Positions 5,197-7,846 of a DNA stretch of 64,000 nucleotides are shown in pieces (positions within the stretch are counted from its first letter, which is position 1; the number at the start of each line of letters is the position of its first letter). The translations under genes were made by a program, and so were the position numbers. The DNA is from Caldilineaceae bacterium. GTDB taxonomy: Bacteria; Chloroflexota; Anaerolineae; Caldilineales; Caldilineaceae. The DNA lies in NCBI GenBank assembly GCA_958295845.1, contig OY282376.1, positions 2,741,022 to 2,805,021 on the forward strand, given 5' to 3'. The notes beneath the pieces were generated by a model. That model was given only the letters and a program-made list of their open reading frames with translations, was not told where the DNA came from and made no database searches.

Positions 5197-5997
5197 GTGT
5201 CAAACTCCGAAGGTCGGAGAGATCACATTCTAGAGCAAGGCATCGAAGAAGTGAGTCGAATGTTGGAACAGCTTGTGAACCAGATTGGAAGACTTGCTCC
5301 CGGGCAGAGACGGATTCTTTTTCGTCAATTGAAAGCCATGGGATTGCTAGAGGCTGAAGTCCTGTTGTCAGATCGGGATCCGTTAGGAATTTCTCTAGCT
5401 GTTCCCATGAAGAACCTCGAAAAAAACAAGAAAAAGGGCGTGAGTGAATCCGAAAGGCCCAGCCCCCCCAGACCTGCCGACCGGCCCCAAGTTCTTGACG
5501 CTGGTTCGGCCGTTAGTGGGCCCGCCACGACTGGTCGGGCGGTGCAACAGGACAATGCCCAACCTGAATCGTCACATGTGTTGGGCAAGGCACCGAAAGA
5601 TCCGATACGAATCGTATTTGATGGAGGCAGCCGCGGCAATCCCGGAAAAGGCTACGGTAGCTTTGCACTGGACTGGCCTGGATACGCAAGGGAGGTGGTT
5701 CAGCTGACATTCGGGGACCAGGCTACCAATAACGAAGCCGAGTACGACACTCTCATTGTGGCCTTGGAAACGGTGCGCGACCGCATGGTTGAACTCCAGA
5801 TCGAGCCAGGGTCGGCCAATCTGAGCATATGGGGAGATTCGCTTCTTGTATGTAACCAGGTGCGGGGAGAGTGGGCGTGCAAAGAGCCTCGGCTTCAAGT
5901 CAGGTTAAGAATTGTAACCGACCTGCTGAACGGTTTTGGCGAAAGTGAACTCAGCCACCACCCTCGCGAAAAGAGTGTAGAAATCCTCGGCCATTAG
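5197..5997 (+). CDS. RNase H-like (RVT_3 type) protein with unusual N-terminal extension
   Basis: The C-terminal half (about 136-266) is an RNase H fold: [16 protein letters not shown] at 141-156 supplies the first Asp, NNEAEY at 178-183 the Glu and WGDSLLV at 212-218 the second Asp. Such proteins cleave the RNA strand of RNA-DNA hybrids. The fourth carboxylate, normally shortly after an HxPRExN motif, is not present: after HHPREKSVE the protein ends at LGH, so the C-terminus looks clipped. Residues 1-70 are helical and 75-130 are a Lys/Pro-rich linker. The GTG start follows GGAAG. Its stop codon overlaps the 3' end of the convergent folD-like gene by four bases. Confidence 0.8.
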
Positions 5998-6860
5998 AGG
6001 TTAGGGGTTGAAACGAGGCGACGGTAAGCGTCAAGCAAATTGCGCATAAGCAACACGTTCGTCATCGGTCCTGTCCCGCCGGGGACGGGTGTTAACATAC
6101 CTGCTGCGGCCTCCACACTACCCTGCTCGCAATCGCCCTTCAGGGAACCATCCATATAAGTCGTACCAAAATCAACGACGACTGCCCCGGGCTTTATCCA
6201 TTCTCCGGTAATCATTTCAGGGCGACCCACTGCTACGCACAGAATGTCCGCTTGCCGGGCAACCTCAGGCAGGTTTTCGGTTCGGCTGTGTGCTATGGTT
6301 ACAGTACAGTGTCGATGCAGCAACAAGAGGGCCATAGGTTTGCCTACAATATCGCTGCGGCCAATCACAACTGCGCTCTTGCCTCTGAAAGCTACATCAG
6401 CTTCCTCCAACAACATGATGGCTCCTGCAGGCGTTGCCGGCACGAAGTGCGGCTGGCGCTGCGCGGCCAGTCTTCCAGCATTCAACGGGTGTACGCCGTC
6501 TACGTCTTTGGCTGGGTTCAGGCGGTCGATGAGCTGCGAATCATCAACGTGATCCGGTAATGGCTCGAGCACCATTATTCCATGAACGGCCTCGTCATCG
6601 CTCAGTTCGGCTAACGCCGCCTGAACATCTCCAGCGCTGCTCTGCTCGTGAAGTTCGACGGGCCGAAAGTTGGCTCCAACCCCCTGGCAGGCGCGACTAA
6701 TTGCGCGCAAGTAGCCTGAAGCGGCTGCATCCCCGCCGACCTGCATGGCCGCCAGAGTCGGCCGTACGCCGGTCGCCGCTGCCAGTTCTGTGAATCTCTC
6801 GGACAGTTCAGTTTGCAACTGTTTGGCCCGTTGCCGGCCTTTCAAGAGCTGTGCGGTCAT
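5994..6860 (-). CDS. folD: FolD-like methylenetetrahydrofolate dehydrogenase lacking the cyclohydrolase lysine
   Basis: A 288-residue FolD homologue that should interconvert methylene-THF and methenyl-THF with NAD(P). Family features include [14 protein letters not shown] (118-131, keeping D121), [10 protein letters not shown] near 141, the nucleotide-binding [14 protein letters not shown] near 165-178 and [11 protein letters not shown] near 258. Two residues used for cyclohydrolase chemistry in E. coli FolD differ. The YxxxK motif reads YLRAI at 50-54, so K54 is Ile, and Q98 of QLPLP is Leu (VLEPLP). The gene starts inside the stop codon of the upstream fchA-like gene (ATGA, 6857-6860), so the two are translationally coupled. 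I infer that the hydrolase step has moved to the neighbour. Confidence 0.88.
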
Positions 6861-7504
6861 ATTTCTACGCCCAGGGTTTCAGTGCACGCAGAACGTGCGG
6901 CGCAATAGCTTTTCTCAGCGGTTTCTCTCAACGCCGCCACGTCTGCCTTCGTTTCGGTCACAAAGGCATCATCATTGAGCCACTTAAGGTTGATATCGAC
7001 GTTTACCAGGGCGCAATTGAGGGCAGCATGGGCCAGGTGGGCAGCGGTTGCCGCATCACTTACGACATTGGGATTGCCTTTCTCGGCGATCGGGGCGGCC
7101 AGTTCCAATAGGTCTGCGCACAGCGCGGCGATCGCAAATGGTACTTCTGCAGCCCCGCGAAGAGCGACCTGCATCGCCTCAGTTCGTGCTGCCTTCTCTT
7201 CCTCGGTGTTACGGGGCATGGAGAAACAGGCGGCGACGGCTCCGAATGCTTCTGCATCCTTGTCTGCAAACGCCAAGAGTTCTGTACGCATCTCCTCCGT
7301 TCGCAACAAGTGACCTCTCATTTCTTCCTCCACAGCCGCGTACCTTTTGCGTCCGACGGTGAAGTTCAAGACCATACTGAGCAGCGCAGCGGCCTGGCTA
7401 CCTGTCAGCGCCGCGGCCGCGCCTCCTCCTGGCGTGGACTCGCCCGAGGCCAGGTCATTCAGGAATGTCTGGATGGTTGTCGCAGCTGTATCCAAATCGG
7501 TCAC
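6857..7504 (-). CDS. fchA: Cyclodeaminase/methenyl-THF cyclohydrolase family protein (FchA-like)
   Basis: A 215-residue all-helical protein of the formiminotransferase-cyclodeaminase C-terminal family. Stand-alone members act as methenyltetrahydrofolate cyclohydrolase (FchA) or formimino-THF cyclodeaminase. The N-terminal signature [19 protein letters not shown] lies at 23-41, and the long helical remainder, with [10 protein letters not shown] near 81-90 and [15 protein letters not shown] near 142-156, fits the family and its usual length. GTG start at 7504 preceded by AGAGAGGA six bases upstream. It overlaps the FolD-like gene by four bases. No histidine-degradation genes are nearby, which favours the cyclohydrolase role. 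Confidence 0.87.
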
Positions 7505-7846
7505 TCAATGTCCTCTCTGTCGGAAGTTCCGGACCCAAGCTCTGTGCACCCGACTGCAAGGGTCCGTCTAGAATGTATTTGGGTGCCAGCGACTCCGCGA
7601 CTTGAGTCGAATCTACAAGCGTGAAGATAGACCTCTATACAAGATTCTCAGAGTAGCAATGGCGCCAATCCAAGCCCGATTATAGCATTCGCCGCGCAAT
7701 TGAACCAGCCAATCGGGAAACTATGTTGGGGCCACAAAGGAGAGGCAATTGCGTGGAAGTGACGGGAGTCCGATGCAACAGTGATTCAATGGGAGCACAG
7801 AAGCATACTCGATCTAGCTCTGTCGTTTCCCTCTAGTCAACATGGG
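7505..7846. other. Gene-free stretch upstream of fchA-folD
   Basis: About 340 bases between the glycosyltransferase stop and the fchA start, both on the minus strand. It should carry the fchA promoter. I could not identify convincing -35/-10 boxes, a terminator hairpin or an RNA gene. Confidence 0.4.

Follow-up and report, generated by a model that had tools for sequence, protein, structure and literature searches.

Does a FolD that has lost its cyclohydrolase residues still carry out both folate steps, or has the second step passed to the separate gene that overlaps it? The question is raised by a pair of genes in a Caldilineaceae genome, within the window (the whole 64,000-nucleotide stretch of DNA analysed). 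The features of the locus are given below, and FolD residues are numbered as in E. coli FolD throughout.

5994-6860, minus strand: folD, 288 aa (P0001), predicted methylene-THF dehydrogenase with the cyclohydrolase residues replaced (A47, I54, L98)
6857-7504, minus strand: fchA-type gene, 215 aa (P0002), GTG start, stand-alone putative methenyl-THF cyclohydrolase of the FTCD_C family
6857-6860, minus strand: ATGA overlap of the fchA stop and folD start, 4 bases, predicted translational coupling
7511-7518, minus strand: ribosome-binding-site-like AGAGAGGA, 6 bases upstream of the fchA GTG, from sequence
6720-6722, minus strand: folD codon 47, Ala, replaces Ser (human Ser49), from alignment
6699-6701, minus strand: folD codon 54, ATT (Ile), replaces the catalytic Lys, from sequence and alignment
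6567-6569, minus strand: folD codon 98, CTC (Leu), replaces Gln, from sequence and alignment

The gene pair and its host genome

P0001 belongs to the FolD family by homology, with the FolD fold and both halves of the protein present at full length (PF00763, 1e-27; PF02882, 2e-59), and its AlphaFold (AF2) model has a mean pLDDT of 85. It aligns over its full length to the solved bifunctional enzymes (FolD/MTHFD1; E. coli 1b0a and human DC301 1a4i) and shares with them the folate-binding Tyr50 and Asp121 and an NAD(P) motif, which reads GRSDIVGKP in P0001, as well as keeping one further loop. It differs from them in its coupling to a separate FchA and in having Ala, Ile and Leu in place of Ser47, Lys54 and Gln98, and so lacks the YxxxK motif with Lys54, the Gln98 and the Ser47 by which a bifunctional FolD is recognized. 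The residues that it retains (Tyr50, Asp121 and GRSxxVGxP) are those expected of a monofunctional methylene-THF dehydrogenase. The original prediction had read Y50, I54, L98, D121 and the NAD(P) site correctly from the letters, as sequence and alignment confirm, but it missed the third loss, Ser47 to Ala47. All of the database models that best match P0001 are labelled 'bifunctional', and as a result metabolic models credit FolD with a reaction that is probably carried out by FchA.

P0002 is a stand-alone FTCD_C domain (PF04961, 4e-64) whose nearest solved chain is 7vg4, named as a methenyl-THF cyclohydrolase (1e-45), with the cyclodeaminases 1o5h and 1tt9 at 1e-24. FchA is its sole NCBIfam match, at 211 bits against a cut-off of 275, and we consider the FchA family name probable. 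As originally described, the gene overlaps folD by ATGA; the two are adjacent, on the same strand and kept together in relatives, which is what would be expected of a coupled module. A scan for promoters and terminators at the locus found nothing. On the other side, an RNase H-like gene (5197-5997, plus strand) converges with folD, and the two stop codons overlap at 5994-5997.

Among named relatives, the closest are MAGs of Caldilineaceae and Anaerolineae (Chloroflexota) with 65-83% identity; in all five, fchA and folD overlap, residue 98 is Leu and residue 54 is Ile or Leu. Two Caldilineaceae MAGs (81-83% identity) have A47, I54 and L98 together with the identical overlap. Since relatives carry the same changes, a sequencing error at codon 54 or 98 is ruled out. 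In the two nearest relatives (L259 and L260), conservation extends to the neighbouring glycosyltransferase-like and RNase H genes.

A second canonical FolD elsewhere in the genome would have given the pair a different meaning, as the original prediction acknowledged, and none is found in the host genome, which is a single contig of 5.40 Mb and 98.5% complete; only one FTCD_C/FchA gene is found in it as well. The genome also has one formate-THF ligase (Fhs) and one PurH/AICARFT, and both C1 steps are therefore needed. A stand-alone glutamate formiminotransferase-like gene (L370:949-1911, PF02971, 6e-17) is present too.

Loss of Lys54 and the presence of FchA

The original prediction proposed a check of whether loss of residues 54 and 98 co-occurs with an adjacent fchA across the phylum. 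We examined 199 Chloroflexota FolDs from 187 genomes (156 genera, 72 families), and a stand-alone FchA was present in 118 of the 124 genomes with a Lys54-less FolD. Among the six exceptions, four genomes are 74-89% complete and two (G114 and G057) have a tandem second FolD bearing Lys54. In the 63 genomes with only Lys54 FolDs, FTCD_C was absent from 38, fused to a formiminotransferase in 14, a weak match in 6 and stand-alone in 5, the last three classes being assigned manually by open-frame length and score. A genus-level Fisher test gave p = 6e-33, with genera counted as if unrelated by descent.

The same contrast is seen in gene order, where FchA adjoins 94 of 133 Lys54-less FolDs and 0 of 66 Lys54 FolDs, the former count being a slight underestimate, as a divergent FchA directly upstream in G126 and G174 was found by Pfam profile only. 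This contrast rules out chance adjacency of fchA and folD. The exact 4-base overlap is the commonest spacing, occurring in 50 of 102 adjacent pairs.

A second phylum gave a similar picture. The sample consisted of 90 FolDs from the phylum to which a Fimbriimonadaceae MAG belongs (Armatimonadota according to the record title), and stand-alone FchA accompanied 20 of 22 Lys54-less FolDs compared to 0 of 68 Lys54 FolDs, with the fused FTCD_C form in the genomes of 2 of these 68. In both exceptions the contig breaks off immediately upstream of folD, at the place expected for fchA. Position 54 is Gln in 18 of the 22, a naturally occurring equivalent of a Lys-to-Gln mutation. The Gln54 FolDs, mostly with an adjacent FchA, are L440, L445-L448, L450, L451, L453, L454, L457-L462 and L464-L466.

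Two further arrangements were seen in Chloroflexota. In G114 (L184) and G057 (L191), small genomes that are 98-99% complete and without FchA, the first folD of the tandem has Ile54 and the second Lys54; this is apparently a second way of splitting both activities, in which the lysine would be supplied by the second copy. Solitary FolD paralogues with Val54 and Leu98 (L064, L161, L177, L190, L194 and L197, and also G156 and L090) occur mostly in genomes that also have a Lys54-less FolD beside FchA, and a look for shared neighbours that would point to a common function found none.

Descent of the Lys54-less FolDs

FolD trees were built without columns 50, 54, 98 and 121. The Lys54-less FolDs of both phyla form one clade (SH-aLRT 93). 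The exceptions are the tandem paralogues in G114 and G057, which represent a separate loss of Lys54 as judged from the tree. A single clade means that the loss is old and that its link with FchA comes from joint inheritance and retention, not from many independent events. Many independent losses of Lys54 are unsupported by the tree, and an independent-pairs test had three pairs only, a number too small to reach significance, and was not significant. In the larger tree, one FolD with Lys54 and Glu98 (L198, from G128) has a long branch and groups within the Lys54-less clade, which is possibly a reversal or a tree artefact.

To see which positions had been freed, parsimony changes were counted for each column from 3 to 282 on the Lys54-less and Lys54 subtrees, whose lengths are 60 and 46. 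Lys54 FolDs have 40 positions that hardly vary, and the three of these with the greatest freedom in the Lys54-less clade are 47, 54 and 98, with 25, 23 and 23 changes there compared to 0, 0 and 0 in Lys54 FolDs; column 54 defines the two sets and so separates them by definition, which is not true of columns 47 and 98. All 136 Lys54 FolDs compared have Ser47 and Gln98. Within the clade, position 54 is occupied by Ile, Leu, Val, Gln or Ala, Gln98 is retained in 93 of 140 members, and Tyr50, Pro100 and the NAD(P) motif are nearly fixed here too. Positions 47, 54 and 98 correspond to human Ser49, Lys56 and Gln100, the proposed cyclohydrolase site (PMC6443876), and a role in positioning the lysine has been ascribed to Gln98 (PMC3338484). 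It is thus exactly the cyclohydrolase positions that have been freed, an observation as direct as those of sequence, gene content, co-occurrence and overlap. The clade can be viewed as natural mutagenesis of the cyclohydrolase site, in which Ser47 and Gln98 drift as well once Lys54 is lost.

A probable division of labour between FolD and FchA

We infer from these observations both enzyme activities and the way they are divided, and put the probability at about 85% that folD and fchA form a translationally coupled folate C1 module consisting of a dehydrogenase-only FolD and an FchA cyclohydrolase. FolD, which keeps its fold, Tyr50, Asp121 and NAD(P) site, would interconvert 5,10-methylene-THF and 5,10-methenyl-THF, and without Ser47, Lys54 and Gln98 its cyclohydrolase activity would be slight or absent. 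FchA, translated from a message shared with FolD, would interconvert 5,10-methenyl-THF and 10-formyl-THF, and the pair together with Fhs and PurH would cover the supply and use of 10-formyl-THF.

Published mutants agree with the premise of the original prediction that K54 and Q98 are needed for cyclohydrolase activity. E. coli FolD K54N has ~19% of dehydrogenase activity and undetectable cyclohydrolase, Q98H has ~8% and ~1%, respectively, and both changes arose as carolacton resistance (PMC5688156). The predicted reduction of FolD to a dehydrogenase, with the hydrolase step handed to FchA, is supported by the K54N data and the co-occurrence, but it is not a local event, the window FolD being a member of one old clade. 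FchA and a Lys54 FolD coexist in several Firmicutes and others, and both genes are reported in most acetogens (PMC10103890), so the presence of FchA is not in itself enough to bring about loss of Lys54. These distributions would fit a sequence of events in which FchA was there first and made the lysine of FolD dispensable.

The alternative that survives best, though we regard it as improbable, is that P0002 is a formimino-THF cyclodeaminase working with a formiminotransferase in histidine or purine breakdown, while FolD and spontaneous hydrolysis cover the C1 step. The formiminotransferase-like gene in the host genome is in its favour, as is the report that methenyl-THF hydrolysis can proceed spontaneously, but E. 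coli with the K54N change shows very slow growth (PMC5688156). P0002 is also nearer to the cyclohydrolase 7vg4 than to the cyclodeaminases, genomes with the fused formiminotransferase-cyclodeaminase retain a Lys54 FolD (14 Chloroflexota, 2 Armatimonadota), and the link between stand-alone FchA and Lys54 loss in two phyla would be left unexplained. Because the formiminotransferase-like gene is present, FchA may, in addition or instead, act as a cyclodeaminase; the two might also form a formimino-THF route, and P0002 may have a dual role as cyclohydrolase and cyclodeaminase.

Somewhat less probable still is that FolD remains bifunctional, with another residue or an ordered chain of water substituting for Lys54 and Gln98 and with FchA adding redundant capacity, as it does in many acetogens. 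For MTHFD2, a simulation study proposed a water relay and argued against Lys88 and Gln132 as the base, leaving the exact role of the lysine open (PMC9173628), and the genomes that hold FchA alongside a Lys54 FolD are compatible with redundancy. Against this, K54N abolishes and Q98H nearly abolishes the cyclohydrolase of E. coli FolD, all three positions of the network drift, with five different residues at 54, and loss of Lys54 goes with retention of FchA while the converse does not hold. Very unlikely, finally, is a real split in which Lys54 and Gln98 were first lost for insensitivity to natural FolD inhibitors such as carolacton, with FchA making the loss affordable: the E. coli resistance changes were selected at a cost in cyclohydrolase (PMC5688156) and the window FolD is changed at both positions, but most clade members keep Gln98, the freedom at Ser47 matches that at 54 and 98, which fits plain relaxation, and there is no sign that these bacteria meet such inhibitors.

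If FolD and FchA do divide the two steps, bacteria of the clade are predicted to need FchA for normal growth, and clade FolDs should not bind carolacton. A broader proposal, which we offer as speculative and rather doubtful, is that an ancient FolD subfamily of much of Chloroflexota and Armatimonadota ceded its cyclohydrolase to a co-translated FchA, that a FolD-FchA complex would pass methenyl-THF directly, and that these FolDs would by nature resist inhibitors that bind Lys54, such as carolacton.

Comparison with known split folate modules

Split folate modules are already known from yeast Mtd1, acetogens and the MtdA/Fch system; what is new is a FolD-derived version co-inherited across two phyla. 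Yeast Mtd1 (1edz; Barlowe and Appling 1990) is reportedly a monofunctional NAD-dependent methylene-THF dehydrogenase, and as a dehydrogenase-only member of the FolD superfamily it resembles the predicted role of P0001, but it is eukaryotic and distant in sequence (E 1e-9), and we know of no coupling of Mtd1 to an FchA. Acetogens have a monofunctional methylene-THF dehydrogenase (Peptostreptococcus productus) and a methenyl-THF cyclohydrolase (Clostridium formicoaceticum), so that, as in the window module, the two steps can sit on two proteins. Unlike the window FolD, however, the FolDs examined in those Firmicutes genomes that have FchA retain Lys54 and lie apart from the fchA gene, and no second case of Lys54 loss with FchA was seen there. 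The likeness to MtdA/Fch of methylotrophs (Methylobacterium) that had been pointed out at the start holds, as that system likewise pairs a separate dehydrogenase with an FTCD_C-family Fch cyclohydrolase, and so does the distinction drawn with it, the dehydrogenase in the window being FolD and not MtdA. A literature search, thin on subscription journals, found no paper on a Lys54-less FolD with FchA in Chloroflexota or Armatimonadota. Among named organisms, Herpetosiphon and a Chloroflexus sp. have FolDs that fall within the clade and are missing the cyclohydrolase residues.
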